NCBI RefSeq assembly: GCF_040581405.1
Contig: NZ_CP137160.1
Coordinates: forward strand, 1-42,425
Direction: 5' to 3'
Source: Komagataeibacter sucrofermentans DSM 15973
Lineage (GTDB): Bacteria > Pseudomonadota > Alphaproteobacteria > Acetobacterales > Acetobacteraceae
DNA length: 42,425 nt
Shown: positions 17,548-40,534 of the stretch, piece by piece
Layout: the number at the start of each line of letters is the position of its first letter
Numbering within the stretch: position 1 is the first letter of the stretch
Notes under the pieces: generated by a model
Database searches by the model: none
Told to the model about the DNA's origin: nothing
The model's input: the letters and a program-made list of their open reading frames with translations, nothing else
Translations under genes and position numbers: made by a program

Positions 17548-18171
17548 TCAAGGCGTACATTGATTTTTATTCAATACCCCAAACCAAGAAACGAATGGAA
17601 CTGTCTGCCCATCAATGGTTGTTATTTTTTGCACGGTAACTGCCACAGCATTGTCTTCTTTGGTTGCATTATATCCAGCCACTATATACCAGTTTCCTGC
17701 AGGAAGATTATTAAAATTAAAATGCCCTCTCGATGGGCAAGTATTAGGGCCATCTGCAGGGCACGAAATATGAGGAATAAATGGCATAACCGAAGATTCA
17801 ACCCATCGGGGATCATTCAATGTATGATAGCTATGCAACAAGTAGTAATGTTTCATTTTTTCTGAAAGATTATACATATAATCATTTTCGGGAAGAAGGT
17901 CTATTGTAAAATTTCGAGAAGGGTTATCGTGATATGAACTTTCTATTGGATAAGAATCATATGTTCCATTAGGAACTTGATAGTTATGATATTTTTCAAA
18001 ATATCCTCCACTAACACATCCTTTAATAGAAGCACTCCCTTTTTTCTTTGCCCATGATACTTCATTTATATTTAATGGTATTTTTGGTGGCGTAGGCTGC
18101 ACACAACCAAAAAGAAGAAGCGACGAAGATATTGCAAAAAACAATCCTTTAACATTGTTATTTTTTGTCAT
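17548..18171 (-). CDS. AT-rich putative lipoprotein after the exoprotein gene
   Basis: This 207-residue protein has a short basic start, a hydrophobic stretch (GLFFAISSSLLLFGC) and a lipobox-like LFGC with Cys23, so it is probably a lipoprotein. The mature part is rich in Tyr, Asn, Pro and Ser, contains four further Cys (GCVSGG, ISCP, NTCPSRG, NQCTP) and has a beta-domain-like stretch (FNFNNLPAGNWYIVAGYNATK). I recognise no family with confidence. Its start overlaps the last 14 bases of tpsA, and both are AT-rich compared with the rest of the operon. A surface accessory, or an immunity or effector cassette of the exoprotein, are possible roles. Confidence 0.7.
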   Translation of the reverse strand: MTKNNNVKGLFFAISSSLLLFGCVQPTPPKIPLNINEVSWAKKKGSASIKGCVSGGYFEKYHNYQVPNGTYDSYPIESSYHDNPSRNFTIDLLPENDYMYNLSEKMKHYYLLHSYHTLNDPRWVESSVMPFIPHISCPADGPNTCPSRGHFNFNNLPAGNWYIVAGYNATKEDNAVAVTVQKITTIDGQTVPFVSWFGVLNKNQCTP

Positions 18172-21100
18172 TTTCTATCCTTTCTTGATCTGTCAAATTT
18201 TTATTGCTTGGCATTGCCTTTACCGCATTTGACTCGTTGTACGCAGCCTTGACCGACTTTTCGAAACTATTCGTTAGGGACAAAATCTCGCCCGCTTCAT
18301 TCGTATCAAAATCATTACTGATCGCATGGTTTGCAGTTGATGGATCACGGGACACGACACCTGACGTAGATCCGGAATTAATTGTGATATTTGACCCAAT
18401 AGAAGAGAGGCTGTTCGATGAAGTCATACCAATTACTGGTGCCGCAAATCCGCTTACATTAGCTCCTCCATCAAAAGTTTTTCTTTTTGTATTTTCTATT
18501 CCTTGATCCGGTCCTGTATTCCCTCCACTCCCCAGATTACCGTATGAGATACTGGCAGATGCGCCGGCATATTCTGATTTATTCTGTTCATCATTCGCCG
18601 TCAGGCTACCCGTTGTAACCATGTTGCCGGATGCCGCCGTGCTTTCCATGACGCCGGCATTGAGGGTCGTGCTGCTGGCAACATCGACATCAAGGCCGCC
18701 CTGACCTGCATAAAGCCCGGAAAGGCCACTGGCTTCCGTCGAGGCGTAAGTGTCAGACAGAACCCCTGCCGAGGCATTGACCGAAAAACCCATCTCCCCG
18801 CCCGTGCCATAGACGGGAACGGCAAAGCTGAAGCCTGCGCTCTCATTCGTGCTGAGATAGCTTGCCGTATTCTGTGCCGAGGTAATATTCAGGTTACCCG
18901 CCGCCACATCTACGGAACCACCGGATACCCTGGCCCCGTCCAGCGTGGTCGTCCCCGCCCCATTATCGATGCTCACATTCTGCGCACCCGTGACCGTCGT
19001 ATCTACCTGTGTCGTGCTTTGTGAATTCGTGTGGGAATGGGAGGCACTGAGTTGCCCCGTAACACTGACCCCCCACTGCAGATTGGCGTTCAGCGAGGCC
19101 GTCGCGCCGACAAAAGCGGACAGGGCCGTCTGGCTGGTAGTCGTATGCGTGGTGTCCTGTCCCGACTGGAGCTGGATATTGCCCGGCGCCGCCAGCGTGA
19201 CACTCTCACCTGACAGGCTCGCGGCCGTGGCGATGATATCCCCGGCATTGCTGTCTGTCGCAGGCTGCGCCCCGGTCGCAGTCATGGTCAGTCCATCGCC
19301 AGCTTCTGCTTCAGATCCCTTTGCCGTGGTCGAAATAGTTTCGGATGTCTTGCTGTCATGCTCGAATCCGACTTCCGCCTGTACTCCTACCAATTCTATG
19401 TTGGATTTCGTTACGTCTGATGTTGTCGCGGCCAGCTTGGTATCCACGAGCGTGGCCACAGTCTTCCCGATACTGACGCCGCTCTCCGCAGTTGACAGGG
19501 CATCCAGTGACTGGGTCGCCATGTCCTTGTCGCTGGCAGTCTGGGCCGCCGACAGGGCCAGATTGGCGGCCTGTCCGACAAGGGAGGTATCCGACAGTCC
19601 GACCTGCACGCCAATGAACTTGAAATCGCTGGTCTGCTTCGTGCTGGATACATCAGACAGTGCGTTGAGCAGGACAGAGGATCCGGTTACGTTCAGATCC
19701 TTCGCGGCAACAAGATCAGAAGCGTTGATGACTACTGGGCCGCCGCCGGTAGCAGACAGGGTGCCCCCAGTCGCCACAATCATGCTCGGAGTCCAGGTCG
19801 TGCTGCTGTCACTGACGCTTTCTTTGGAAGATCCGAACCCAACCCTAGCCTTGGCACCGTCAGTATCAAAATAAAATCCTTTACTTTCCTTATCGTAATA
19901 TGACTGCGCCGTGCTCTGGAGCGCATTCTCCGTAAGACTGCCACCTGCCTGAAGCGTGACATTGCCGCCGCCTGCGACAGTGCCCGCCACGGACATGTCC
20001 TTGCCCGAGACCATGGTGACATTGCCATTGGCCGCCACCGTGCTGCCGACCTGGTCGGTGGAACTCTCGCTCGAGGTCGTGGTGGTCCTGTTCAGGAAGC
20101 CGTGCTCGACGGTGCGGGTATAGGAGGACTGGCTGTCGGTGACCGCGTTGAGGTTCACGTTGCCCGTCGCCATCAGCGTGGCCGACTTCCCGGCCGCGAC
20201 CGTGGCGCCCGCCAGGGTGAGGTCGCCGCCGAGGGCGGCCGCCGTCAGGTTCCCGCCCGTGCTGACCGACGCCCCAAAATTCTCCGTCTCGGCCGCGCGG
20301 TGGCTGTAATCATGCTGCTCGATGTCCTGCGACGCGCTCGCCGCAACCGAACCCAGCGTGATCCCCTGCCCTGCCACAAGCGTGGTATCGCCCAGCGCGC
20401 TGAGCGACCCGCCATCAAACGTGATGTCCTTCGCCGCATGGATCTGCGCATCGCCCCCCGAGGTGATGGTGCCCTGCGCGCCCAGTGACTGCGCCTTCCC
20501 GCCATCGACCATGAAGGTATTGAGCTGGTCCTCGTTGACGACCGAGCCGTTCAGCGCCGCCAGCGCCACGCTGCCGCCCGACAGCGTCCCGCCGGCATTG
20601 ACGATATCCCCGCTGGTCGCGGTCAGCGACAGCGCGTTGCTGGCGTTGATCGTGCCGGTATTGTTGATGCTCGAGCCGGTCAGCGACACGTTGGTCGCCG
20701 AGATCTCCGCCCCGTCCGTAAGCGTCGCCTGGCCTGGGGCCAGATACAGCTTCGGCGCCAGCACACTGCGCCCGTCCACCGTCTCGGGCACATACCAGAC
20801 AATGTTCTGCGTCAGCGCCGCCTGCTGGCTGGCCGTCAGCGCTGCGCCAAAGGTCAGGTCAAGCGCATTGGATTCCGAGACCGCGTTGTTGAGCAGCAGT
20901 TCCATCTGCTCGTTGGCCGTCTCGTAGCTGCTGCCAAGGAAGGTCTGGCCCGTCGACGCCACGATCTGCTGCTGGATGAACTCCGTATCGAAATACGAAT
21001 CCCCCAGGAACTCGTAATCCGCCGTGTTGTCGCCCAGCCGGTTGACCAGGTATTGCGAGCCATAGAAGCCGCTGAAGGTCGCGTATTTCGGGTTGGTCTC

Positions 21101-24100
21101 GATCAGGTAATGCGCGCTGGGGTCCGGATCGGCGATGAACAGCGCGCTGCCGCCCGGAATGGCCGAGATCACCGTCGGGATGGTCGGGTCGCTGCTGGTG
21201 GCAAATCCCGGCAGCGTCATCGCGGCTTCCTGGGCCGTCGCCGACGCCTTCACCTGCGCGGTCTCGACCCCCTGATAGGCCAGGGTGCCGCCCGTGGTGG
21301 CGGGCGCCGCCGCACTGCTCCGCGTGCCGGCCGCCCCCGCGACCCCGGTGCTGACATCCGCCAGGGCCGCCGTCGCCCCGCCGTTCAGCGCGGCGTCAGC
21401 CGCAACCCCGGACGCAGACGAAGCGGCAGCCACCGGAGACAGGCCGCCCGGCGTCTCGCCGGTATAGCTGGTATATTCACTGGAACTCGCGTTGGCGATT
21501 TCCGTCTGGTTGTTGATCGTGCCCGTGAAGGTGCCCGTGATATTGTCTTTTGCAACGATGGTGCCGGTCGGGCCGTAATAGGTCTCGCTCGAACCCCATT
21601 TTTCCTTGGGCTGCGGAGCGGCCGTCCAGTAATGGCCGACCGTAATGAGGCCAAACTTCTTCTTGTGCCTTACGGCCGACGTCGACCCGCCCTTGAAGGC
21701 CGGGTCGGACTGACTGGTCCAGCTACAGCCGTAGAAGGCCTTGCAGGTTACATAGAAAGCATGCTGGACGGCGTAGCCGATATTGTCGAGGCTGCCCCCG
21801 CTGAGATTGATGTCGCGCCCCGCCGCGATATGGCTGGCATCGTTGATGATGCCACCTGTGGTTGTAATATCCACATCACGCCCGGCCGAGATCAGGGAGG
21901 CGGCGTTGTTGAGCGTGGCACGACCACCATCTTCCTGCACATAGATCGTGCCGCCCTGGGAATGACCGACAAGCTGGCCCGTGCCCTGTGCGCCGGTCAC
22001 GGTATCCAGCAGGCCTGCCGGCACGGGAATATCGACATTGCTGCCGCCCGCGTAACTATGGCTCCACAGGACGGCATTGGCGACGACCGTCACCCCGCCC
22101 AGGACATCATTGGTGACCGTGCCAGCGTTGATCAGGACATCCCCGCTGGCGCTGTCAGCCACGATCTCGCCGGAGCGGTTGAACACGGCGGTGGCCGCCC
22201 CGCTGGCGCCATTGCCGATCCCGATCGACCCGTTATCCGAAAGGATGGCCCCAAGCTGGTTGGTCAGGGTGCCGGGCAGGTCCAGGGCCACACCGGCCAC
22301 ACCATCAATGAGGCCGGTATTGGTGATCGCCCCGCCCGAGGAGACGTCCAGGACGCCGCCTTCGGCCATCAGGGCGCCGTTATTGGTGACCGATGCCGCC
22401 GTGATGGTGACGTTGCCCCCGGCCAGCACGCCGCCACCGGCCTCGGCCGTGTAGTCGCCCCCGACCCGCAGCAGCGTGTCGCCCCCGGACTGGAACAGCA
22501 TGCCACTGTCGAGGTCCCCCGTGAGCGTCACGGCCAGCGTGTTCCCTGCGACCAGCTGCGCAGCACCACCGAGCGAGGTCGTATCAAGCGATAGATTGCC
22601 CGCCGCCTGCACCACGCCGTCCGTATCGCTGAACCCGGTCATCGCGCTGCCGCCAGCATTTGCAAGCGACAGGGTATTCTGGCCGGAGCGTTCGATCACG
22701 CTGCCGCCGTCATTGTCCAGCCCGTTCGCCACCAGGGTCAGGTTGCCCCATGACTGCAGCGTGCCGCCCGCGTTATTGATGCTGGCGGCCGCCTGCGTGC
22801 CGCCGGCGGAGAGCAGCAGGCTGCCATCGGCCGCGTTGACCAGGCCGCCCGACCCGTTGGTCAGGCTGTCGGCAACCAGCGTGATATCCTGGCCCGCCTG
22901 CAGCGCGCCACCGTCATTGGCAAGCTGCGCCATCGCGCCGCCGCCTGCATTGCGGACATCCAGCGTGCCGCCGGTGCTGACGATCCGGCCGGCGCTGGTG
23001 TTATCGAGCGCCGCCGCCGCCAGCGCGACATTGCCCGCGCCCTGGATCGCACCGCCTTCATTGCCCACTGCGCCGGTCGTGGTGACGCTCACGGCGCCCG
23101 CACCCGAGATGACCGCGCCGGATGTGTTGGTCAGGCTGGCCCCCGAAAGGGCGACCGCGCCATTGCCCCCGATCCGTCCATCGGTATCGTCGATCGCGCC
23201 GCCACTCTTCAGGGTCACGCCCTGCGTGCCGTAGACCAGGCCGGAATTCGACACGGAGCCGGACAGGGTCGCGTTCATCTGGTCGGACGCCACCAGCGTC
23301 CCGGTATTGGCAAGGGAGGCCGCGTTGAGGTCCACCAGGCCAGCCAGCGCACCGATCTCGCCGCTATTGGTCACGCCCTGCGCCGCAAGGGTGACATCGC
23401 CCTGCGAGACGAGCGTGCCGCCATTGGCCAGGGCCACCTGCGTCGTGACGTCGAGGGTGGCGCCACGGCCTTCGGCCTCGATCCGCCCGGCATTGGACAG
23501 GCCATCACCGCTGCCCGTTCCGGTCAGGACGAGGGAGAGCACGCCGTTTTCGGTCGCCATCAACCCGCTGGAAGCGGTCGTCAGGCCAGCGGCCGTAAGG
23601 CCCAGCCCCTGCCCGCCCACCAGCGTGCCCGCAACAGCCATGTCGCCCGCCGCCACCACGGACAGGCCCTGACCGGCACTCATGACGCCCGTGGCATCAT
23701 CGGACCAGGTCCCCGTCACCAGCGACAGGTTCCCGGCCGCCTTGACCGCGCCACCGGCGTTCGAGAAAGCCAGGGCGGATGCGGGCGCGCTGTCGGCATC
23801 CAGCGCGATGTTGCCATCGAGTGCGAGGATGCGGCCATTGTCATTGCCGATCGTGCCGGCCGCGATCGAGACACTCCCGGCCGCCTGGATGATGCCGCCC
23901 GACGTGTTGTCCAGTGTCGCCATCAATGTGGCGGGAGACCCTGCGGAGAGCGTGACGTTGCCGCCCACGCTGACCAGGGTGCCGGCGGTGTTGGCGAGGC
24001 TGGCCGCCGCAATGGTCAGGTTGCCACCCGCCTGCACCGCGCCGCCGCGGTTATCAAGGGCGGTCAGCGGCGTCGTGGCATCGCCATTGCGGATCCCGAT

Positions 24101-27100
24101 GGCGCCTCCCGCGAGGATCGTGCCGGCTTCGTTATCGAGGCCTGTGGCGGAAAGCGCGAGGCTGGTCCCGGCCTGGATCGTACCATTGTCATTGGCGACC
24201 TGTGCCGCCGTCAGGGCCAGCGCGCCCGCAGCCCCCGTGCCGATGGTCCCGCCCTGATTGGACGTTGTGCCCCCTGACCCAAGCGTCAGTCCGGTCGCAC
24301 CATACAGCGTGCCGGTATTGATCAGGTCATCCGTCGTGGACACGTCAAGCCCTGCCGCAGTCGCGATCAGGCCGCTATTGGTCAGACCTGCCGCCGAAAG
24401 CGCGCTACTACCGGCAAGTGAGGCGATCTCACCGCTATTGAGCAGGAGGCCGTCGGCGTCGACGCTCTGGTTCCCCTGCGAGATGATCGTACCCGTGTTG
24501 GCGAGCGACGTCGCATCAACCTTCAGGACACCGGCGACATCCGCGTCCTCGATGGCGCCAGCGTTGGACAGGGCGGGCGATGCCGCATTCCCATGGACGG
24601 CAATCATCGTGTCACCGGCGAGGGCGCCAATGGTGCCCTTCGCGCCATTGACCAGGCTGGCCGCCGAAAGGCTTAGCCCGTCACCCGCCGTAATCGCCCC
24701 TTCGTTATCGGCCGCCCCCGTGACCGACAGGTCAAGCGCGGTTCCTGCCTGAAGGGCAGCCGATGTGTCACTGGCATACTGGCCGGTCGCAAGCGTCAGC
24801 GCGCCACCCGCCTGGACCGCGCCATCCGTATTGGTGAACAGCCCCTGCCCCGACCCGTTATCGGTGATGGCAACAGAACCGGTTTTCCCGACCAGGCCAC
24901 CGGATGTATTGTCAACGCTCACCGCGCTGATCGTGAGGTCATTGCTGGCCTCGACCAGGCCCGATGCGTTCGTCAGGTGGTCAAGGGCCGCACCCGTCGC
25001 ATCGCGGGCAAGGGTGACGGATGTCCCGCCCAGCACTGTCCCGCCGGTATTGTCGAGCGCGGTCGTCACGATGGACATGAGGGCGGCTGCCTGCAGCCAG
25101 CCGTTATTATTGGCGACACTGGCGGCATCGATGTTCAGGCCACCATCCGTCGCGATGATTTTGCCCCCGGTATTGTCGAGGCTGGCGGCGGCAAGCTGCA
25201 CCACGCCCGTATCACTGCCAAGCTGCCCGCCCCTGTTGGACAGGGCGCCACCCGCCGCAAGGCTCAGGCCGCCTGCCCCATATAATGTACCCGTATTGGT
25301 CACCGTACCGGCCGTGCGCACGCCAAGCGTGCCGGCGGCAAGGATGCTGTCACTGTTGGCCAGCGTGGCGGCGTCGATCGTCAGGCTGCCCGATGCCGAC
25401 TGGGATTTTATGACCCCCGTATTGGCCAGGCCACCAGTCCCCGCCGCGTTGAGGGTAAGGTTGCCCGCGGTTGCAAGCAGCAGGGCGGATGCTCCGTTGG
25501 CGATGTGGTCCGCCGTCACGGTCACGCCCGTGCCGCCACCCAGCGTGCCTTCGTTATCGACCGCCCCCGTGGCGGTGACGGCAAGGGCCTGCTGCGCCGT
25601 CAGCGAAGCCGTGGTGTCGGATGTATAGCTGGCCAGTGCAGCAGTCAGGCTGCCCCCGGCCTGGATGGCCCCGCCATTATTGGTGACGGCCTGCGCTGAC
25701 AGCGTCATGTCACCCGACTGGTCGAGGATCTTCCCGCCCGTATTATCCAGCGCCCCCACGGCGGCAATCGAGGCCAGACCGGTCGTGCTCGATATCTGGC
25801 CACCGGCATTGGACAGCGTGCTGGCGCTGGCCAGCGTCAGCCCCGCCTGGGCTGCGATCGTGCCGGTATTGGCGAGCGACCCTGCCCGGGCGGACAGGGC
25901 GCCACCGGATGCGCCGATGCCGCCACTGTTATCGAGCGCACCGGTCGCAGAAAGCGACAGCGCGCCAGCCCCGGCCGTCACCGTCCCGCTATTGCCGATC
26001 GCAGCCGCCCGGGCGGCCAGGGTCGTACCGCCGCCAATGGTCCCGCTGTTATTCAGGGCGCCGCCTGCCGCCAGCTGCATCCCGCCACCTGACTGCAGCG
26101 TCCCGGCATTGCTGACCTGCCCGCCCACCTGCGCCTGCAGGTTGCCCGAAGCCGCCATGGAACCGTTGAGCACAAGGTCGCCGGCATCGGTCAGCGTCAT
26201 GTCGCCTGCATTGGCCGCCATGGTGCCGTCAACCCGCACGCCGGCGCCGGCCTCGTTGACCACCATGTAGATCCGGTTGGCGTACATCCCGCCAAGGGCC
26301 GCCGTATCAATCGCGAATTCCGGTGCGGCCGTGCCGTCGGACGCCAGCGGATGGGCCGCGTTGGTGCCGTAATCGACCCGGTTGCGCCCGGCCACGATAG
26401 TGGCCGTCTCCGCATTGACCTGCGCCTTGAGCGTCACCGAGCGCGACAGGATGTCGAGCACCGGCACGGTGGTGAAGTCTCCGCCCTTCCCCTCGAAGGT
26501 GATGTTGCCGCCCCGGACGACGATATCCTTCAGGTTGCCGCTGGCATCCATCTCCGGCGTGCCGGTGGCAAGGGTCACATGGGCGGTGTTGATGAACCCG
26601 CATCCCGCACAGGTGATGCCGTTGGGGTTGGCCACCACCACCGAGGCCTGGTGCCCCGCCACTTCCGTATAGCCCAGCATCTGTGTCGGCAGGGTGCCGG
26701 TCACCTCGTTGAGGATCAGGCTGGCGGCATGGCCGTCAAGATTGGTGTTGCCATACACCACGCCCCCGATCTTCGTCTCGGTCGCCGTGGTGGCGTTGTT
26801 CAGGATCACACCGCTTTCGGGCACGCCATACTGGATGAAGTCATTATGCGACACGCCCGCCGCGTTGGGGGTGGCGATATTGACCTGGTCGATGCCGTTC
26901 TGGGTCTTGTCCAGCGTCGGCTCGGGGCCGCCGGCATGGGGATCGACCACGATCTGCGGCTCCGCCTGCTGGGCGGATGCGGCGGACACGGTCGAGGCCA
27001 GGAACAGGGAGACGGCGGCAAAGACATGCACGCAGCGCTGAAGACGTGACGGACCCGGAATGATATCGGGTGCGGCAACCCTGCGGGGCGTCTTCATCAT
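18158..27100 (-). CDS. TpsA: filamentous haemagglutinin/CdiA-type exoprotein without toxin tip
   Basis: This 2980-residue exoprotein is secreted by the adjacent TpsB. Residues 1-43 form a long signal peptide ending ASA. The TPS domain follows, with NPNGI at 158-162 and a CAGC motif after it. Residues 300-1770 are haemagglutinin repeats of the type LDNTGG / LANTGT, a long beta helix. Near 1780-1790 there are Cys (VTCKAFYGCSW), and near 1990-2090 a segment conserved in CdiA-like proteins (YLIETNPKYATFSGFYGSQY, then FGAALTASQQAAL, NIVWYVPETV). FHA-2 type repeats run to about 2850. The tail (SNITINSGSTS, then AISNDFDTNEAG) matches the part that precedes the pretoxin domain in CdiA, and there the protein stops. 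It overlaps tpsB by four bases. Confidence 0.93.
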   Translation of the reverse strand: MMKTPRRVAAPDIIPGPSRLQRCVHVFAAVSLFLASTVSAASAQQAEPQIVVDPHAGGPEPTLDKTQNGIDQVNIATPNAAGVSHNDFIQYGVPESGVILNNATTATETKIGGVVYGNTNLDGHAASLILNEVTGTLPTQMLGYTEVAGHQASVVVANPNGITCAGCGFINTAHVTLATGTPEMDASGNLKDIVVRGGNITFEGKGGDFTTVPVLDILSRSVTLKAQVNAETATIVAGRNRVDYGTNAAHPLASDGTAAPEFAIDTAALGGMYANRIYMVVNEAGAGVRVDGTMAANAGDMTLTDAGDLVLNGSMAASGNLQAQVGGQVSNAGTLQSGGGMQLAAGGALNNSGTIGGGTTLAARAAAIGNSGTVTAGAGALSLSATGALDNSGGIGASGGALSARAGSLANTGTIAAQAGLTLASASTLSNAGGQISSTTGLASIAAVGALDNTGGKILDQSGDMTLSAQAVTNNGGAIQAGGSLTAALASYTSDTTASLTAQQALAVTATGAVDNEGTLGGGTGVTVTADHIANGASALLLATAGNLTLNAAGTGGLANTGVIKSQSASGSLTIDAATLANSDSILAAGTLGVRTAGTVTNTGTLYGAGGLSLAAGGALSNRGGQLGSDTGVVQLAAASLDNTGGKIIATDGGLNIDAASVANNNGWLQAAALMSIVTTALDNTGGTVLGGTSVTLARDATGAALDHLTNASGLVEASNDLTISAVSVDNTSGGLVGKTGSVAITDNGSGQGLFTNTDGAVQAGGALTLATGQYASDTSAALQAGTALDLSVTGAADNEGAITAGDGLSLSAASLVNGAKGTIGALAGDTMIAVHGNAASPALSNAGAIEDADVAGVLKVDATSLANTGTIISQGNQSVDADGLLLNSGEIASLAGSSALSAAGLTNSGLIATAAGLDVSTTDDLINTGTLYGATGLTLGSGGTTSNQGGTIGTGAAGALALTAAQVANDNGTIQAGTSLALSATGLDNEAGTILAGGAIGIRNGDATTPLTALDNRGGAVQAGGNLTIAAASLANTAGTLVSVGGNVTLSAGSPATLMATLDNTSGGIIQAAGSVSIAAGTIGNDNGRILALDGNIALDADSAPASALAFSNAGGAVKAAGNLSLVTGTWSDDATGVMSAGQGLSVVAAGDMAVAGTLVGGQGLGLTAAGLTTASSGLMATENGVLSLVLTGTGSGDGLSNAGRIEAEGRGATLDVTTQVALANGGTLVSQGDVTLAAQGVTNSGEIGALAGLVDLNAASLANTGTLVASDQMNATLSGSVSNSGLVYGTQGVTLKSGGAIDDTDGRIGGNGAVALSGASLTNTSGAVISGAGAVSVTTTGAVGNEGGAIQGAGNVALAAAALDNTSAGRIVSTGGTLDVRNAGGGAMAQLANDGGALQAGQDITLVADSLTNGSGGLVNAADGSLLLSAGGTQAAASINNAGGTLQSWGNLTLVANGLDNDGGSVIERSGQNTLSLANAGGSAMTGFSDTDGVVQAAGNLSLDTTSLGGAAQLVAGNTLAVTLTGDLDSGMLFQSGGDTLLRVGGDYTAEAGGGVLAGGNVTITAASVTNNGALMAEGGVLDVSSGGAITNTGLIDGVAGVALDLPGTLTNQLGAILSDNGSIGIGNGASGAATAVFNRSGEIVADSASGDVLINAGTVTNDVLGGVTVVANAVLWSHSYAGGSNVDIPVPAGLLDTVTGAQGTGQLVGHSQGGTIYVQEDGGRATLNNAASLISAGRDVDITTTGGIINDASHIAAGRDINLSGGSLDNIGYAVQHAFYVTCKAFYGCSWTSQSDPAFKGGSTSAVRHKKKFGLITVGHYWTAAPQPKEKWGSSETYYGPTGTIVAKDNITGTFTGTINNQTEIANASSSEYTSYTGETPGGLSPVAAASSASGVAADAALNGGATAALADVSTGVAGAAGTRSSAAAPATTGGTLAYQGVETAQVKASATAQEAAMTLPGFATSSDPTIPTVISAIPGGSALFIADPDPSAHYLIETNPKYATFSGFYGSQYLVNRLGDNTADYEFLGDSYFDTEFIQQQIVASTGQTFLGSSYETANEQMELLLNNAVSESNALDLTFGAALTASQQAALTQNIVWYVPETVDGRSVLAPKLYLAPGQATLTDGAEISATNVSLTGSSINNTGTINASNALSLTATSGDIVNAGGTLSGGSVALAALNGSVVNEDQLNTFMVDGGKAQSLGAQGTITSGGDAQIHAAKDITFDGGSLSALGDTTLVAGQGITLGSVAASASQDIEQHDYSHRAAETENFGASVSTGGNLTAAALGGDLTLAGATVAAGKSATLMATGNVNLNAVTDSQSSYTRTVEHGFLNRTTTTSSESSTDQVGSTVAANGNVTMVSGKDMSVAGTVAGGGNVTLQAGGSLTENALQSTAQSYYDKESKGFYFDTDGAKARVGFGSSKESVSDSSTTWTPSMIVATGGTLSATGGGPVVINASDLVAAKDLNVTGSSVLLNALSDVSSTKQTSDFKFIGVQVGLSDTSLVGQAANLALSAAQTASDKDMATQSLDALSTAESGVSIGKTVATLVDTKLAATTSDVTKSNIELVGVQAEVGFEHDSKTSETISTTAKGSEAEAGDGLTMTATGAQPATDSNAGDIIATAASLSGESVTLAAPGNIQLQSGQDTTHTTTSQTALSAFVGATASLNANLQWGVSVTGQLSASHSHTNSQSTTQVDTTVTGAQNVSIDNGAGTTTLDGARVSGGSVDVAAGNLNITSAQNTASYLSTNESAGFSFAVPVYGTGGEMGFSVNASAGVLSDTYASTEASGLSGLYAGQGGLDVDVASSTTLNAGVMESTAASGNMVTTGSLTANDEQNKSEYAGASASISYGNLGSGGNTGPDQGIENTKRKTFDGGANVSGFAAPVIGMTSSNSLSSIGSNITINSGSTSGVVSRDPSTANHAISNDFDTNEAGEILSLTNSFEKSVKAAYNESNAVKAMPSNKNLTDQERIENDKK

Positions 27101-28842
27101 ATCTTCGCTCCAACCTGAAACAGCGGGATCAGCCCTTCCGAGGGAAGCGGGCCGGTATACATGGAATGGGTCAGGGAGACGTTCCAGAAGAACGGCCCCG
27201 TGGTCTTGCGCAGCCCCAGGCCACCGCCCGCCATCTCGCCGCCCTTCAGCGCAGGCGGCGTGGAGGAGGAGGCAAAACCCGCGCGCACGACGCCGACATC
27301 AAGGGCGGCGTAAAGCTGGGTGCCCTCGATGACCTGGTGGCAGATGAAGGCGAACTTCCCGCACTTCAGGCCCTTTGTGGGCAGCTGCCACGAGAAGTCG
27401 TTGCGCATGTAGCCGCCGTCATTGCCCAGCAGGACCTGCTCGAGGAAGCCGCGCACCGAATAGGGGCCACCCACCTGCAGTTCATTAGTGGGAAACTGGT
27501 CGCGCGTGCTGTATTCGCCGTGCAGCGTGGTATGCCACAGCACGCCGCGCGCAAGCGGCTTGTAGCCGTCAATGTCGAGCGAGGGCTTGAGGTAGGAGGA
27601 ATGCGGGTCCTGCCAGCCTGGACGGATGAAGTTCGACCACGTGCCCGCGCCATCCACCGCGACCTTGAGGCCACCGGTGATGTACCACACCCCGCCCCAG
27701 CCCTTGAGCGATTCACTGACCTGCACGTTGACGAAGGCCTGCCGCGCCGTCTCGGTGTCGATCACCGTATGGTTGATCTCCGAGCCGAACGACTTGCGCT
27801 CGTAGCTGGCCTGGAAGGTGGTCACGCCGATACGGTTGCGCAGCAGCACGCGCGAGATGCCCAGCCGCCAGTCCCGTCGGCCGCCGCCAAGGTGGTAGAT
27901 GTCGCTGAGTGTTGCGAGCGGATAGTCATCCTGCGAGCGCCACCACGACCCGAACACGGTCCAGTAGCCGAACGGGATCGACCCGTTGACCGACAGGTAG
28001 GACGTGCCGCGCTGCCCGGCATGGCCGACAAGCGAATGGTCGTATTCCACTGACCACAAATCCAGCAGCCCCAGCGGGTTTTCCGCCGTGAGCATGGCAT
28101 GGCCCGTCTCCTGGCCGGTGATCTGCTGGCCGTAATTGTCGAACCAGACCTGGCCGTGCAGCACGCCCCGCTTGGGCGCAGTCACCACCACGGTGGACGC
28201 CCCCGCCCTGCCGCCGGGGGCGATGCGCATGCGCGCGCCCCAGTGGCTCAGCCGGTTCATGTCCTCGATCCCCTGTTCCAGGTCCCGCAGGTTGAGGATC
28301 TTCCCGTGCAGCCCGGGGAAGGCCATGACGGTCGCCAGCCGGGCCGGGCGGCCCTGTAACTGGATACCCGCCAGTTTCCCTTCGATCACCACGATCCGCA
28401 GGTGCCCGCTGGAAAGCTTCTGCTCGGGCAGGTAGGCCCGCGAGGTGATGAAACCCTGGCGGATATAGGCGGCATTGAGCGCGTTGATCAGTCCGTTGAG
28501 ATCGCGCACCGACATGCAGGTGCCGACATGGGGACCGGTGATCGCATCGCTCAAAGCGCGCGAGAGGTGCTGCGCACCTTCGACCGTGATGTCATGCACC
28601 GTAACACAGGTTTTTGATGCCTGTGGCAGGGCGGACGGCCTCTGGATCTGGATGTCGTTTGACGGTGGCGGCAGCGCGTCAAGCTGCTCCTGGTGCTGCT
28701 CGAAGCGCTGGAACTGGTCCTGCGACGAGCCCGGCCCCGCCGGCATCACGCCGCCGGGCAGGCCCGGCACCTGGGCCATTGCCACACCGGGCAGCGCCAT
28801 CATGGCCGCCGCCGCCCCAACCTGCCAGCGCATCACGCGCAT
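27097..28842 (-). CDS. TpsB: outer-membrane two-partner secretion translocator
   Basis: This 581-residue protein of the FhaC/ShlB family exports TpsA across the outer membrane. It has a signal peptide (to about MAMA), a Pro/Gln-rich linker, a POTRA domain near 80-160 (CVTVHDITVEGAQHLSRAL, then INALNAAYIRQGFITSRAYL), a second POTRA-like part and a 16-strand barrel. The barrel contains the conserved VRGF tetrad of the inward-folded loop (GGPYSVRGFLEQ). Its stop overlaps the tpsA start, as expected for a fixed pair. An alternative start lies at 28833. Confidence 0.94.
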   Translation of the reverse strand: MRVMRWQVGAAAAMMALPGVAMAQVPGLPGGVMPAGPGSSQDQFQRFEQHQEQLDALPPPSNDIQIQRPSALPQASKTCVTVHDITVEGAQHLSRALSDAITGPHVGTCMSVRDLNGLINALNAAYIRQGFITSRAYLPEQKLSSGHLRIVVIEGKLAGIQLQGRPARLATVMAFPGLHGKILNLRDLEQGIEDMNRLSHWGARMRIAPGGRAGASTVVVTAPKRGVLHGQVWFDNYGQQITGQETGHAMLTAENPLGLLDLWSVEYDHSLVGHAGQRGTSYLSVNGSIPFGYWTVFGSWWRSQDDYPLATLSDIYHLGGGRRDWRLGISRVLLRNRIGVTTFQASYERKSFGSEINHTVIDTETARQAFVNVQVSESLKGWGGVWYITGGLKVAVDGAGTWSNFIRPGWQDPHSSYLKPSLDIDGYKPLARGVLWHTTLHGEYSTRDQFPTNELQVGGPYSVRGFLEQVLLGNDGGYMRNDFSWQLPTKGLKCGKFAFICHQVIEGTQLYAALDVGVVRAGFASSSTPPALKGGEMAGGGLGLRKTTGPFFWNVSLTHSMYTGPLPSEGLIPLFQVGAKI

Positions 28843-34653: not shown

Positions 34654-37600
34654 CTACATCCCCATATCCATATCCCGCCCCCTGGAACGCGACAGCGAGC
34701 GCGTGCGCTGCGGCTGCAATCCATGATCGAGCGTCGATCCCTTCCGGACGCCCAGTTCATGCCCCTTCTGCCGCAGGAGGGATTCAAGCTGCACGTCCCG
34801 CTTCAGCTCCCTGAGCGCCACACCCTGCTGCTCGCGGCTCAGCCCGTCCCACGCCTTCACGAACCGCGCCGCCCGCAACTCGGGGGAATGCCGCACCTTG
34901 TCCTCGTGTTCCAGCCCCTCGACCAGCCTGCGCGCCCGTGCCGGCCCTTCCAGCCCGTACAGGGCCTGCCGGATCTCCGGCTCATGCTTCACGGCGGTTT
35001 CCAGAGCGATCACCGCCCCGGGCCGTAGCCGTTCGAGGGCCGTGCTGGCGTCAAGCCATGCCTTCTTCTGGTGCTCCAGCACCGGCAGCTCCTGCTCCAC
35101 CATGCGCCCGATGTCCCGCACCGCCCGCGCATACTGCTCCACCGCCTGGTGGAGCGGATCACCACCCGGCACAAACCCGCCCAGCCCGGCAGGCACCTGC
35201 GCGCGCTGCACACGCGGCAGCCGCAACCCGGCAAAGGGCGAGGCGGGAGCTTCACGCTCAACCCCACTTTCCCCCTTACTGGCCCCGGCATCCACCCCGG
35301 CCGACACGTCTTTTTCCGCCGTCTGGCCACGCCCCCGCACGGACAGGTCCAGCCCGTCGAACATCCCGCGTTTCCGCTGCGCCGGTGCCGGATCTAGCGT
35401 ATGGACAGCTTCGGCCTGCCTGTCCTTCTGGGGGCCAGAGGCCGTCTCGCTGCGCTCCACCACGATCTCGCTCTCGGGGACATGCAGCCCGCGCCGTCGC
35501 GCAAACCCGGCATCCCGATCCCGGACATGCGGGTAATCCAGCGTGGTATCCTTCAGCCGCTCGCGCGACAGCCGCCGCACCAGCCCGTCCCGGTCGCCCA
35601 CATCATCCCGGCCCCAATGAACGGACACGCTCTCCCGATGGCGCGACAGCGCCACATAGGCCCCATGCCGGTCCATGCTCCCCGTCGCCAGCACATGCGC
35701 CCGGTCCACCGTCACACCCTGCGATTTGTGGATGGTGGCGGCATAGCCATGATCCAGCGCGTCATAATCCGCCACCGACACGGACACGACCCGGCCACGT
35801 CCGGCTCCCTCCTTCCCATCAAGCTGGACCGATAACGCCAGATCCCCAGCCTCAGCCGACCCCACGATACCCCGCACCGTCCCCAGCGTACCGTTCTTTA
35901 CCCCCAGCTCCCGGTCATTGCGCAGGAAGTAGATACGCTCCCCGTCCGCGAACACCCGCTCGCCCTGGGCGGTCGGCACCAGCACATCATCACCCAGTTC
36001 ACCCGCGTCCCGCCGGATCTCCCGCGCCGCCTCGTTCAGCGCCCGCACATCGACACGCCGATGCGCCAGCATGATCTGGCTTTCCTCTGGCGCGGCCTGA
36101 CGCGCTTCATCCCATCCGGCCACCACCCCGGCCCGCGCCTCTTCCAGCGTGTCATGACCGCGCACCAGGCCGGCCGCCTCATAGCGCCCCAGCGCCTCAT
36201 CCGTCCGCCCGGTCGCCAGCTCCTTCGTGGCCACCTGCTGCCAGCCTTCACGCTGCCGGCGCACGGTCGTGATTTCCACCGACCCGACCCGCTCGGCCAC
36301 CGCCCGGAACGCACCGCCGGCCTCGATCGCCTGCAACTGCTCGGGATCGCCCACCAGCACCACCTTGGCCCCGGCCCCGCGCGCGGCAGACAGCACCCGC
36401 TCCATCTGCCGTGAACCCACCATGCCGGCCTCATCCACCACCAGCACGTCCCCACGTTCCAGCCGGTCGAACCCACGCGCCCACGCACGCTCCAGGGAGG
36501 CCAGCGTCCGGCTTTCGATCCCGGACCCCGCTTCCAGACCTTCCGCCGCGATCCCCGACAGCGCCGCCCCGCGCACCCGGTACCCGGCCTCTTCCCATGC
36601 CGCGCGGGCGACACCCAGCATGGTGCTCTTCCCCGTCCCGGCATACCCGACCACGACGGACAGGTCGCGGGACTTCGTGACCTCGCCCACCGCCAGCGCC
36701 TGCTCGTCCCCAAGCCCGTCCCGCGCCATCGCCACCCGACGCACCGCCAGCGGCACCGCATGACCCTGGGACCGCCCCATCGCAAGCGATGCCTCTTCCA
36801 GACGCTGCTCGACCCCGATCATCTCCCGTGTGGAAAACCGCTCCCGCCCATGCCCGTCTTTCCCAATGACAACCAGATCCGGACACGCTTCCACCTGAAC
36901 CATGACAGCACTGAACTGCGCGGCATCCGCCGTATGCCGGTCCACGAACCGCGCCAGGTCCTGGCGGGTGAATGTGCTCTGCTGTCGGGTCAACGCCTCC
37001 AGCGCCACATGCGGTTCGGCCAGCAACCTTTCGCCATTGCGCCGCGCGATCTCCAGATGGTCGGCAACCCGCTCACACGGTTCGCCGCGCTCCGGCCGGC
37101 GTGACCCTGCGGGTCCGATCTTGTTCTGCGGCTCAAGGTCGATCCCCTGTGCGGCAAACGACCGATGGTCGATCCGCACATCCAGGTCCAGCCCGGCCAG
37201 CCGTTCATTGGCGAGCGACGCCCATCGCTCCCGCCATGTCAGCAGCAGATCCTTGTCATTCCATGAACGCTCTTTCGCACCAAACCCGATGGAAGGCTGA
37301 TCCTGCTCCAGACCTTCATGCCGCAGCCGTGCCGCCGCGATCAGTCGCGCCGTTCTTCCAGCCGCTGCAAGCGCTTCTCCAGCGTCGAGAGCTTCAGCAG
37401 GATGCCGCGCTGCGTCTCCCGGATTTCCGCCAGCAGACGGATCATGAGCTTGAGTGGATCGTCGTCCCCTTTCTGCTCCATCAGGTCCAGGATCCGGCGT
37501 GATGTCGTATGCGCCCCTGCCGCCTCGTTCAGGATGCGGGATTCCGTCTCGTCTTCCATGCACAGCCTCTCCGGTTCTGACTTCGATCCGTCGTGTAGAC

Positions 37601-38025
37601 AGCATCACATGGGCATGGGGCTTCGCCTGTCCATCTTCGCCAATATCCCAATGCACATTGAGATCAGCCACCATGCCGCGTTCCACGAACTGCTCGCGCA
37701 CAAAATCCCGTGCCAGCGCGATCCCCTGCGCCTGGGTCATTTCGCGCGGGATTGAAAACTCCACCTCGCGGGCAAGCTGGGCATCCTTGCGCTTCTCGAT
37801 CGCCTCGACCTCGTTCCATAGGGTCGCACGGTCGAGAAACCGCTCCGGCGCGCCGTCGGGCAGCAGGATCTCGGAATGCACCACGCCGCTCTTGTTGGAA
37901 AAGTCATGGTCGCGATCCAGCCGCAAATCATGCAGGCGGGACGCTGCACGATAGGCCGCCGCCGCCACGGCGCTCCGGCCGGTGGCGCGGCTGATGACCT
38001 TTGCATGCAGGTGATAGATCGCCAT
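34654..38025 (-). CDS. traA: Ti-type conjugative relaxase-helicase TraA (MobQ)
   Basis: This 1123-residue protein should nick oriT, unwind and pilot the plasmid strand. The N-terminal relaxase has MAIYHLHAK, the likely nucleophile Tyr25 and the metal-binding His125, His137 and His139 (HWDIGE, KPHAHVM). The RecD-like helicase part carries Walker A (GYAGTGKST, about 457-465) and Walker B (LVVDEAGMV, about 526). Later come the helicase motifs GDPEQLQAIEAGGAFRA and GYAATIHKSQGVT and a Ti-TraA-like C-terminus. Residues about 156-229 are Gly/Pro/Arg-rich, are not family-like, and overlap a separate small gene in another frame. No type IV secretion genes accompany it. Confidence 0.95.
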   Translation of the reverse strand: MAIYHLHAKVISRATGRSAVAAAAYRAASRLHDLRLDRDHDFSNKSGVVHSEILLPDGAPERFLDRATLWNEVEAIEKRKDAQLAREVEFSIPREMTQAQGIALARDFVREQFVERGMVADLNVHWDIGEDGQAKPHAHVMLSTRRIEVRTGEAVHGRRDGIPHPERGGRGAYDITPDPGPDGAERGRRSTQAHDPSAGGNPGDAARHPAEALDAGEALAAAGRTARLIAAARLRHEGLEQDQPSIGFGAKERSWNDKDLLLTWRERWASLANERLAGLDLDVRIDHRSFAAQGIDLEPQNKIGPAGSRRPERGEPCERVADHLEIARRNGERLLAEPHVALEALTRQQSTFTRQDLARFVDRHTADAAQFSAVMVQVEACPDLVVIGKDGHGRERFSTREMIGVEQRLEEASLAMGRSQGHAVPLAVRRVAMARDGLGDEQALAVGEVTKSRDLSVVVGYAGTGKSTMLGVARAAWEEAGYRVRGAALSGIAAEGLEAGSGIESRTLASLERAWARGFDRLERGDVLVVDEAGMVGSRQMERVLSAARGAGAKVVLVGDPEQLQAIEAGGAFRAVAERVGSVEITTVRRQREGWQQVATKELATGRTDEALGRYEAAGLVRGHDTLEEARAGVVAGWDEARQAAPEESQIMLAHRRVDVRALNEAAREIRRDAGELGDDVLVPTAQGERVFADGERIYFLRNDRELGVKNGTLGTVRGIVGSAEAGDLALSVQLDGKEGAGRGRVVSVSVADYDALDHGYAATIHKSQGVTVDRAHVLATGSMDRHGAYVALSRHRESVSVHWGRDDVGDRDGLVRRLSRERLKDTTLDYPHVRDRDAGFARRRGLHVPESEIVVERSETASGPQKDRQAEAVHTLDPAPAQRKRGMFDGLDLSVRGRGQTAEKDVSAGVDAGASKGESGVEREAPASPFAGLRLPRVQRAQVPAGLGGFVPGGDPLHQAVEQYARAVRDIGRMVEQELPVLEHQKKAWLDASTALERLRPGAVIALETAVKHEPEIRQALYGLEGPARARRLVEGLEHEDKVRHSPELRAARFVKAWDGLSREQQGVALRELKRDVQLESLLRQKGHELGVRKGSTLDHGLQPQRTRSLSRSRGRDMDMGM
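37341..37559 (-). CDS. Small coiled-coil protein encoded inside traA in another frame
   Basis: This 72-residue acidic and basic helical protein starts MEDETESRILNEAAGAHTT, then has DPLKLMIRLLAEIRETQ and a heptad-rich end (LLKLSTLEKRLQRLEERRD). Its ATG is preceded by GGAGAGG six bases upstream, an excellent ribosome binding site. The amino-acid make-up is that of a real coiled-coil protein, whereas the overlapping TraA residues look like out-of-frame translation (RRDGIPHPERGGRG). The gene seems to have been placed into traA while keeping the traA frame open. The function is unknown; a role in mobilisation is suggested by position only. Confidence 0.72.
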   Translation of the reverse strand: MEDETESRILNEAAGAHTTSRRILDLMEQKGDDDPLKLMIRLLAEIRETQRGILLKLSTLEKRLQRLEERRD

Positions 38026-38055
38026 GAACGCGATCCTATCACACCACTTAAGCGC

Positions 38056-38085
38056 ACGTCACGAAGTGACGTATAAGCGCGCACT
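38056..38085. other. Candidate origin of transfer (oriT)
   Basis: ACGTCAC-GAA-GTGACGT (38056-38072) is a perfect 7-base inverted repeat. It is followed directly by ATAAGCGCGCAC (38073-38084). In MobQ plasmids (RSF1010/R1162, Ti) the relaxase site is an inverted repeat followed by a TAAGTGCGC-like nick region. The place between divergent traA and traC is that of the Ti oriT. The nick position is not proven. Confidence 0.7.
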
Positions 38086-38187
38086 CACATTTTACTGCGC
38101 CAAAAGGGTTGGTTTGTCTGGATGAGTGACGCGGTTCTCGCCTGTGTGGTAGAGTATGGCACAGACCAGCAGGACAGGGGACCGGAA

Positions 38188-38481
38188 ATGCGCAGGCCAC
38201 GGGACATTGATGCGGAACTGAAGGCGCTTCAGGAAAAGGCGAAGCAGCTTAAGGCGCAACGGACCCTCCAGCTCGGCGAACTGGTCGAGGCGACGGGAGC
38301 CGATACCCTGTCGATCGAGGCGCTGGCCGGGGTGCTGCTTGCGGCTGTCGAACAGGCGGACGGCAAACCCGAAGCCGTTGCGAGGTGGACCGAACGGGGG
38401 ACGGCGTTCTTTCAGGCCGGCGCAAAAAAGGGCGGTCGGAAAGGAACCGGAAACGATCAGAACGGAGCTTCTGGCGCTTGA
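38188..38481 (+). CDS. traC: TraC-like conjugal transfer protein
   Basis: This protein of about 97 residues has a coiled-coil start (RRPRDIDAELKALQEKAKQL), then LGELVEATGADTLSIEALAGVLLAAVE and AFFQAGAKKGG. It resembles the small TraC/TraD accessory proteins of Ti-type mobilisation regions, divergent from traA across oriT. The ATG at 38188 has an AGGGG site; the frame is open from 38122. A run of six A (38424-38429) lies near its end, where a one-base loss would join it to the next frame. Confidence 0.8.
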   Translation: MRRPRDIDAELKALQEKAKQLKAQRTLQLGELVEATGADTLSIEALAGVLLAAVEQADGKPEAVARWTERGTAFFQAGAKKGGRKGTGNDQNGASGA

Positions 38482-38785
38482 AAGACGGATCAGGAAGCAG
38501 GCGGCCCTGATCCATCGCCATCAGGCACGAAAGGCACGCACCGACATGCGCGACTGGGCGAAGGCGCGACGGGAACGCACCCATCATCTGATCGAACTGG
38601 GCGGCCTGGTCCAGAAGGCGGGACTGGTCGATCTGACCGATGATGACCGCGCTACCCTGCTCGGGGCCTTCCTGGACATTGCGGGGCAGCTTCGGGAGGG
38701 CAGGAATACCGCGTCAGGCGACCTGAAAACACGCTGGAGGCGTGCGGGGCTTCATGCCTTCGACAGGGACCGGGAACAGGACTGA
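38339..38785 (+). CDS. traD: TraD-like conjugal transfer protein, start uncertain
   Basis: The recognisable part (TELLALERRIRKQAALIHRHQ, then RRERTHHLIELGGLVQKAGL and VDLTDDDRATLLGAFLDIAG) is typical of small TraD proteins of alphaproteobacterial plasmids. It overlaps traC in the +1 frame. No ATG or GTG precedes the conserved part; only TTG at 38339 and 38378 are available. The true protein may start at a TTG, arise by frameshift from traC, or the sequence may have an error in the A6 tract. Its last 150 bases recur at 39859-40009. Confidence 0.72.
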   Translation: MRLSNRRTANPKPLRGGPNGGRRSFRPAQKRAVGKEPETIRTELLALERRIRKQAALIHRHQARKARTDMRDWAKARRERTHHLIELGGLVQKAGLVDLTDDDRATLLGAFLDIAGQLREGRNTASGDLKTRWRRAGLHAFDRDREQD

Positions 38786-38863: not shown

Positions 38864-39475
38864 ATGTATTACGGCAAGAACGCCTTTTCTCTGCTCCTAC
38901 GTTACACCCTTGCCCATGAGATCGAAGAGTGGGGCTGGGACATCGGCGACCATACATATGGTGCCAAGGGTTCTCCCATCATCATAGAAGCCGAATATGC
39001 CGGCCTGAAGATCGGGAAATACTGCTCGATTGCCCGCGAGGTGCTGATGATCCTGGGCAATCACCGACCGGACACGATCACCACCTACCCGTTCAAGAAC
39101 CAGTGCAATTTCTGGCCCGAAGCGGCGGATGCAACCGATGACCATTCCACCAAGGGGGATATCGTCATTGGCAACGACGTCTGGATCGGCGCGCGGGCCA
39201 ACATCATGTCGGGTGTCACCATAGGATCAGGCGCGATCATCGCCACGGCGGCCGTGGTGACCAGGGACGTGCCGCCATATGCCATCGTGGGCGGCAACCC
39301 GGCCCGGGTCATCAAATACCGCTTCCCCGAAAAGACCATCGGGCGTCTGCTTGCAGTCGCCTGGTGGGACTGGCCTGAAGCATTGATACGAGAACGGATG
39401 CCCCTCCTGATGAGCGACGATATCGACGCTTTCCTGCGCGCTTTTGAAAAAGGACCCGCACAGGAAAAATCATGA
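38864..39475 (+). CDS. CatB-related O-acetyltransferase (hexapeptide repeat)
   Basis: This 203-residue left-handed beta-helix acetyltransferase resembles xenobiotic (Vat/CatB) enzymes that acetylate chloramphenicol or streptogramins. It starts [25 protein letters not shown]. It has [13 protein letters not shown], the catalytic-region [15 protein letters not shown] and hexapeptide turns [19 protein letters not shown] and [30 protein letters not shown] is at the end. Its real substrate could also be a sugar or lipid. It is inserted between traD and a partial copy of traD, so it is cargo. Confidence 0.9.
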
Positions 39476-39807: not shown

Positions 39808-39858
39808 GTTGTGCAGGCCGGACAGATTGGAAACCGTGTCTTACGCGACATCCCCTGG

Positions 39859-40009
39859 CTGACCGATGAGGACCGCGCAACCCTGTTCGGAGCCTTCCTG
39901 GATATTGCAGGGCGGCTTCAGGGCGGCGATGATACTGCTTTGGTTGACCTGACAGCACGCTGGAGACGTGCGGGGCTTCATGCCTTCGACAGGCACCGGA
40001 AACAGGACA
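39859..40009 (+). pseudogene. Partial second copy of the traD 3' end
   Basis: About 150 bases match 38634-38782 with scattered differences. The encoded part (WLTDEDRATLFGAFLDIAGR, then RRAGLHAFDRHRKQD) equals the C-terminus of TraD. The 5' part of traD is missing and the stop has been lost, so the frame runs on to 40065 into the MucR-like gene. Similarity continues weakly past the end (ACACGATCATC). It marks the other border of the acetyltransferase insertion. Confidence 0.78.
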
Positions 40010-40030
40010 GGACAACAGGCAGACGTGACC

Positions 40031-40534
40031 ATGACCGACCACGAGACACGATCATCCGGAGCTGACACAGTGTGCGAGCTTACGACCCGGATTGTCACAG
40101 CCTATGTCAGCAGTCACACGGTTCCGGCGGATACCCTGCCAGGCCTCATCGCCACGGTGTTTCAGGCGCTCGGAAGTCTGGGACAGGCGACGACCGGAAC
40201 ACCGGATCTGGTGCCGGCCGTGCCCGTGAAAAAATCCGTGTTCCCGGATTACATCGTCTGCCTGGAGGACGGAAAAAAAATGAAGATGCTCAAGCGTCAC
40301 CTTCACACCGTCTATGGCCTGACGCCCCAGCAATACCGGGCAAAATGGGGCCTGCCGGAAAGCTATCCGATGACCGCCCCATCCTATTCGGCACAACGGG
40401 CTACCCTGGCACAGGAAATCGGACTGGGGCGGACCATCAAGGCGACACCGGAACCTTCGCACGTACCGGACGCTGAAGTTCCGGTCACGCGCCTGCCAGA
40501 GAAGAAACGCGGACGCAGGCCAAAACTGGCCTGA
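40031..40534 (+). CDS. MucR/Ros-family transcriptional regulator
   Basis: This 167-residue protein has the MucR layout: an N-terminal oligomerisation part (ELTTRIVTAYVSSHTVP), then VPAVPVKKSV and the zinc-finger-like DNA-binding domain (CLEDGKKMKMLKRHL), YGLTPQQYRAKWGLPESYPM and a basic tail (EKKRGRRPKLA). MucR proteins bind AT-rich DNA and act as H-NS-like silencers. The ligands Cys77, Asp80 and His90 are present, but the usual second His (HLxxH) is Val94, with His92 nearby. The start at 40031 is chosen because the upstream frame belongs to the traD remnant. Confidence 0.9.
   Translation: MTDHETRSSGADTVCELTTRIVTAYVSSHTVPADTLPGLIATVFQALGSLGQATTGTPDLVPAVPVKKSVFPDYIVCLEDGKKMKMLKRHLHTVYGLTPQQYRAKWGLPESYPMTAPSYSAQRATLAQEIGLGRTIKATPEPSHVPDAEVPVTRLPEKKRGRRPKLA

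Follow-up and report, generated by a model that had tools for sequence, protein, structure and literature searches.

A small gene nested in traA

The window analyzed here is an entire contig of 42,425 bases, one of five in its genome. It carries on the reverse strand a traA gene (34654..38025, 1123 aa) for a Ti-type MOBQ relaxase/helicase, with matches to PF03389 (residues 17–309) and AAA_30. The assignment to Ti-type TraA is based on TIGR02768, which gave 1026 bits against a curated cut-off of 590, and on NF010464, which also scored above its cut-off. A 72-codon frame had been predicted to lie fully inside this gene. We found that the corresponding ORF (37341..37559, reverse strand) is indeed wholly contained in traA and is read in the +1 frame relative to it, starting with an ATG at TraA codon 156. 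Its 72-aa product is acidic and has two predicted helices. The sequence GGAGAGG, likely the ribosome-binding site of the small gene, is present six bases 5' of the ATG, as predicted, at 37566..37572 of the same strand. The Shine-Dalgarno strength of this ATG, rank 8 among 70 internal ATGs in traA (6 of the 70 reach −7.1), is unexceptional when taken alone. In both TraA-nest plasmid records examined with gene tables, the small frame is unannotated.

TraA residues 156–229, which are encoded by the same bases, had been described as rich in Gly, Pro and Arg. Their composition (18% Gly, 19% Ala, 14% Arg, and 11% Pro, versus 10, 13, 12, and 3% elsewhere in TraA) agrees with this description. So does their location, between PHAHVMLSTR, on the side of the HUH motif, and GFGAKERSWNDKDLL.

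Upstream of traA, a likely oriT region (38040..38095, no strand assigned) contains an inverted repeat, CGTCAC/GTGACG, followed by TATAAGCGCGCACT, which by eye appears to resemble the MOBQ oriT consensus in PMC3832669. TraD-like proteins are encoded next to this region. Two nearby stretches, 38339-38785 and 39811-40065, code for almost identical protein ends (by eye, LTD[DE]DRATL.GAFLDIAG...RWRRAGLHAFDR) and flank a hexapeptide acetyltransferase gene (38864-39475), making up a duplicated piece of the mobilisation region near the likely oriT. Elsewhere on the contig, a 2980-aa ORF at 18158-28842, scanned in pieces, has filamentous-haemagglutinin and TPS domains and lies beside a ShlB/FhaC-type partner; these domains mark the two as a pair for two-partner secretion, here on a contig of plasmid size.

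The inserted stretch in related plasmids

A 501-base query spanning the place of insertion matched 119 plasmid records, of which 39, all of them listed (H1-H39), are from acetic acid bacteria, as judged by the organism tally and the listed rows. The whole query was present in 7 of the 39 TraA records. In the other 32, the two flanks lie ca. 288 bp closer to each other; absence of the insert was read from match lengths (flanks spanning ~208–213 bases), with a single record, Acetobacter ascendens L004, aligned base by base. In L004, the five residues SVDEN, located between PHAHVMLSTR and GFGAKERSWND, replace ~100 residues of the window's TraA, in line with the expectation that other TraA proteins hold little sequence at this place. 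The alignment to this one relative sets the limits of the inserted stretch at 37288..37576 of the reverse strand (~288 bp net). Most of its length is taken up by the small gene, the rest being the likely ribosome-binding site and a short tail in the traA frame. The original prediction that a small gene had been inserted into traA is thus supported in that most close TraA genes lack the stretch holding it, but the inserted stretch is longer than the gene itself.

By record name, the TraA-nested form occurs in Komagataeibacter, Novacetimonas, Gluconacetobacter entanii, and Kozakia, and a distant form is found in Acidisoma sp. L85 (L084). The 32 of 39 records without the small gene indicate that TraA-type transfer can do without it.

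No relative was seen in which the small frame is broken by stops while traA is kept, among loci most of which were found via the small frame itself; of the seven plasmid records with the full insert, two (L002 and L003) were examined base by base for frame breaks. Stops in the small frame were likewise absent from all 20 TraA places of the order-level search described below. The sole broken copy seen, L001 10-408 (NZ_CP019879.1 30147-30545), has both traA and the small frame broken. It belongs to a second, truncated traA start on plasmid pKNA04, annotated MobA/MobL; the same plasmid also has a full-length copy (L002), in which the small frame is intact.

Substitution patterns in the nest

Codon-position analysis of the TraA group was done with 39 loci (20 distinct sequences) selected by script for an intact small frame. 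In traA upstream of the nest, variable sites at codon positions 1, 2, and 3 numbered 9, 5, and 53 (53 of 67 at position 3). Inside the nest, the corresponding numbers were 19, 6, and 2, i.e., 19 of 27 sites were at traA codon position 1, which is the third position of the small frame, and 2 of 27 at position 3. Changes relative to the consensus followed the same pattern. Upstream, the traA frame had 58 synonymous and 11 nonsynonymous changes (crude N/S 0.08). The nest read in the traA frame had 2 synonymous and 29 nonsynonymous changes (crude N/S 6.4), compared with 25 and 6 in the small frame (crude N/S 0.11) and 6 and 25 in the third frame (crude ratio 1.55). Counting sites and assuming independent changes, the share of position 3 differs between nest and upstream at p = 8e-11 (Fisher test), and the synonymous share in the small frame gives p = 1.6e-8 (binomial test). 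Comparison of synonymous sites in both frames, which had been proposed as a check, thus showed that changes in the nest are mostly synonymous for the small frame and mostly not for traA. The high traA-frame ratio reflects constraint in the small frame and should not be read as positive selection.

The same flip was observed in hosts of a second kind, PF03432-type relaxase genes (see below). In 11 such genes of 582–590 codons, of which 3 share one small protein, the nest, taken from its conserved core onward, had 37, 24, and 16 variable sites at host positions 1, 2, and 3. Comparison stretches gave 20/7/40 (the next 300 columns), 42/29/64 (the preceding 300), and 56/36/116 (the first 600). The difference was significant both against the stretch after the nest (p = 2.7e-6) and against the first 600 columns (p = 1.1e-7). 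The evidence for selection therefore covers the TraA group and the 590-aa PF03432 group. Sequences within each group are related to one another.

At a longer distance, between the window and Acidisoma, the small frame is identical at 33 of 67 positions (49%), with the same layout, the TraA frame at 28 of 63 (44%), and the third frame, which has stops, at 21 of 63. Since both frames are kept over this distance, the TraA residues over the nest are not free either.

It could be argued that TraA alone is translated and that a GC-rich linker insert merely happens to leave the small frame open. GC-rich genes commonly have alternative phases that stay open over long distances, and the traA frame, too, is 44% identical at the longer distance. 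Yet variation in the nest avoids traA position 3 (2 of 27 sites), 25 of 31 changes are synonymous for the small frame, the bias is repeated in the second relaxase group, and the nested proteins are homologous across the groups. We consider this explanation hardly credible, and a chance ORF or mere GC-rich linker is rejected on the codon-position tests in both groups. The observed small frame is thereby confirmed as more than a product of chance. The claim that one stretch encodes two proteins is supported by the small-frame-biased substitutions together with homologues that have the same layout.

The small frame could instead act in cis as a translational regulator of traA, through internal initiation or ribosome traffic, with the protein being incidental. 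The presence of a start and a Shine-Dalgarno sequence within the traA message would fit such a role. We regard it as very unlikely, however, because residues are conserved from end to end of the frame (at 49% identity) and between the relaxase kinds, which points to a functional protein.

A family nested in two kinds of relaxase genes

The window protein alone had matches in 18 of 397 family-level genomes. Of 395 order-level genomes, 32 were hit by a seven-member profile, A1, at 44 places in total. Each of the 44, as well as one further place (G636, belonging to the same class but to a different family), sits within a longer ORF of the same strand and is read in its +1 frame (45 of 45, some of the host ORFs being cut by contig or fetched-stretch ends, with the shortest at 245 codons). 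The constant phase is likely explained by stops in the other phase, as seen in the window and Acidisoma copies, such that only +1 keeps the relaxase open. Among 18 representatives, 13 have an upstream ATG whose Shine-Dalgarno duplex reaches −7 kcal/mol or lower, a count that has no matched background, and several hosts have more than one candidate start for the nested gene.

The hosts fall into two BLAST groups with no link at E 1e-5: 20 are TraA (PF03389) and 25 are PF03432-like relaxases. A further correction to the original prediction is that the gene is part of a wider family in two kinds of relaxase gene. In a Pfam scan of 13 hosts of the second group, the PF03432 cut-off was reached by 6–7, 4–5 matched below it, and 2 had no match. 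The cut-off was reached by L021, L041, L046, L047, L045, and L049, and also by L065 and L101, which were scanned in addition to the 13; L019, L020, L048, L050, and L051 matched below it. The two hosts without a PF03432 match (G009 and G415) share 48–53% identity with one another and with the host of G079, for which there is a match. An LPD7 domain (PF18821) is found downstream in two nested-gene PF03432 relaxases (L050 and L065).

A second family member is located on the window genome's own 2.9-Mb contig (G000:C1:1356509-1356730; L045, L054, L064). Its host is a PF03432 relaxase gene of 642 aa from the chosen ATG, in an open frame of 694 codons.

Beyond the order, the class search with A1 yielded, besides the window genome, a weak, un-nested hit in one of 384 genomes (G804, E 0.002). 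G636 was first matched by profile A2 in a phylum sample (E 5.2e-5), which makes it an independent hit; its strong score in a second class search arises by construction, its own protein being in the profile. Un-nested weak matches in the phylum sample were G1051, G1112, and G1130 (E 0.0017-0.0045). These three and G804 were not accepted as family members, having weak scores and lying outside relaxase genes, and were taken as chance coiled coils. Besides G000 and G636, the second class search gave weak hits in G725, G791, G540, G612, G506, G040, and G578 (E 0.0016-0.048) and G619 (0.048). As judged by these profile searches, the family is scarce beyond the order.

Inside a PF03432 relaxase gene of Methylobacterium bullatum (L101 2501-3736), a frame of 71 aa is nested in +1 and has a strong Shine-Dalgarno sequence. 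This frame is possibly a very distant family member or an independent nested gene, and was left out of the counts with a profile E of 0.47. A search for plasmid-borne relatives of PF03432 hosts gave 11 rows from 8 distinct records; in the 7 records examined, no family hit fell below E 0.4. A tblastn search of plasmids with two PF03432-group small proteins gave no match, which may be due to the masking of low-complexity sequence by BLAST.

Homology of the nested proteins

Small proteins of the TraA and PF03432 groups were aligned by hhalign with a probability of 96.5% (E 8.9e-10). A second-group HMM scored two TraA-nested proteins at 36.6 and 31.8 bits, compared with 2.5 and 7.5 bits for the reversed sequences and 10.7 for the best of 2000 shuffles. 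These homology scores are somewhat favoured, as some second-group members were found with profiles containing the window protein. The window protein by itself retrieved four members of the second group (G272, G379, G079, and G226), with E values of 3e-4 to 3e-3. By these sequence comparisons, the small proteins of the two relaxase groups are homologous.

No match to the window protein was found up to E 1 in Pfam, NCBIfam or PHROGs. Other members gave scattered single matches, with best E values of 0.0037 in Pfam (15 members, best 25 of 26 families) and, for 7 members, 0.0085 in PHROG and 0.023 in NCBIfam. A fold search with the two-helix model gave best E values of 1.7 in the PDB and 5.7 among viral structures, and was uninformative, as expected for a two-helix model. 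The small genes look like an overlooked family, with no convincing known-family match in the libraries searched. Bacterial overlapping genes are seldom this well backed, i.e., by a codon-position flip in two host genes together with homology of the nested proteins.

Origin of the nest

The chances seem even that this is a portable overlapping family that passed between MOBQ TraA and PF03432 relaxases, with different landing places but always in +1. If true, expression and inheritance of the small gene would be locked to whichever relaxase carries it. A single ancient nest, already present in an ancestor shared by the two relaxase kinds and not moved between them, is the less favoured, though plausible, reading. 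It would account for the same relative frame in 45 of 45 places and for the lack of a standalone relative among the 44 order-level places, and MOBP relaxases are called closely related to MOBQ in PMC3832669. The two host groups are different Pfam families of HUH relaxases that may be distantly related, which makes an ancient nest less unlikely. Position argues against common descent in place: the TraA nest starts at codon 156, just after the HUH motif, but the match in the PF03432 group begins at codons 264–615 of the open frame (24 of 25 hosts, the remaining one being cut by a contig end). In addition, apart from the small gene, TraA genes that carry it are very close to those that lack it.

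The predicted product and its possible role

AlphaFold2 predicts two helices in the window protein, at residues 2-28 and 35-71, with a mean pLDDT of 81.5, and a similar model was obtained from the single sequence. Four family proteins for which properties were computed have a pI of 4.9-5.4 and are without a membrane segment. The product would thus be an acidic, soluble helical hairpin or dimer.

We think it probable that the family represents a real protein-coding gene in the +1 frame of a relaxase gene, whose product is a relaxosome or transfer accessory made within the relaxase message. Ribosomes would start at the internal Shine-Dalgarno sequence and ATG on this message, such that the small protein would be made and inherited together with its relaxase. 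It may then join or regulate the relaxosome, or the hand-over of the relaxosome to the coupling protein/T4SS, as an accessory factor of the MobB/TraH type. The TraA residues over the gene would serve as a flexible Gly/Pro/Arg-rich linker. We infer the accessory role, by analogy, as the best explanation because of the strict tie to relaxases of two kinds and because nested mob genes are known from other plasmids.

A different function, that of an entry-exclusion or fertility-control protein carried on the relaxase gene and taking no part in the relaxosome, appears unlikely. In its favor, mbeD of ColE1, for which the annotation is 'MbeD family mobilization/exclusion protein', is a nested gene of similar size with the same frame relation to its host, and the small gene is optional among TraA genes; but homology to MbeD was not detectable, and the four proteins computed are without a membrane segment. 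If the product is a relaxosome or transfer accessory, a testable question is why accessory genes stay inside the relaxase gene, for example, for coupled dosage or for cis-acting assembly. A TraA-silent change can remove the small gene alone, because the T of its ATG (37558, reverse strand) falls on the third base of a TraA His codon.

Comparison with known relaxase-nested genes

MobB of RSF1010 is longer than the window protein and has a membrane part. According to PMC2200642, mobB lies within mobA/repB in a different reading frame, and MobB is essential for RSF1010 mobilisation. Like the window gene, it is nested in a MOBQ relaxase gene, a likeness by description. For ColE-type mobA, 'internally encoded MobB and MobD' are mentioned in PMC9282650.

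The small mob genes mbeB and mbeD of ColE1 are nested in the MOBP relaxase gene mbeA, both in +1 like the new family (the mbeA frame is our own reading, being absent from the gene table of the ColE1 record). MbeD has 77 aa. MbeB has 172 aa with a hydrophobic stretch, unlike the window protein. Comparison by hhalign with MbeB and MbeD gave probabilities of 0.7% and 0.3% (E 0.08 and 0.24), i.e., no relation. PF04837 and PF04899, which match MbeB and MbeD themselves, were absent among the Pfam matches listed for the scanned family members (G636 not being among these).

In IncP plasmids, traH is nested in traI, and TraH is an acidic relaxosome-stabilising protein. In R751, a frame at L096:19103-19495, unannotated in the record, is by coordinates in +1 in traI and is presumably TraH. 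It differs from the window protein in lying near the 3' end of traI and in coding for a Pro-rich protein of 130 aa, and the hhalign probability of 0.1% indicates no sequence relation.

Among the open-access literature matches listed, no title or abstract start described any gene lying inside traA or inside a relaxase gene of an acetic acid bacterium, and the accessible parts of PMC7690428 and PMC12857230 hold nothing on nested genes. The family would work like mobB, mbeB/mbeD, and traH, as a member of the same functional class, with no homology detectable by profile comparison to MbeB, MbeD, or the TraH-like frame of R751. While nested genes in the relaxase genes of RSF1010, ColE1, and IncP plasmids are already known, a nested family common to two kinds of relaxase is new.
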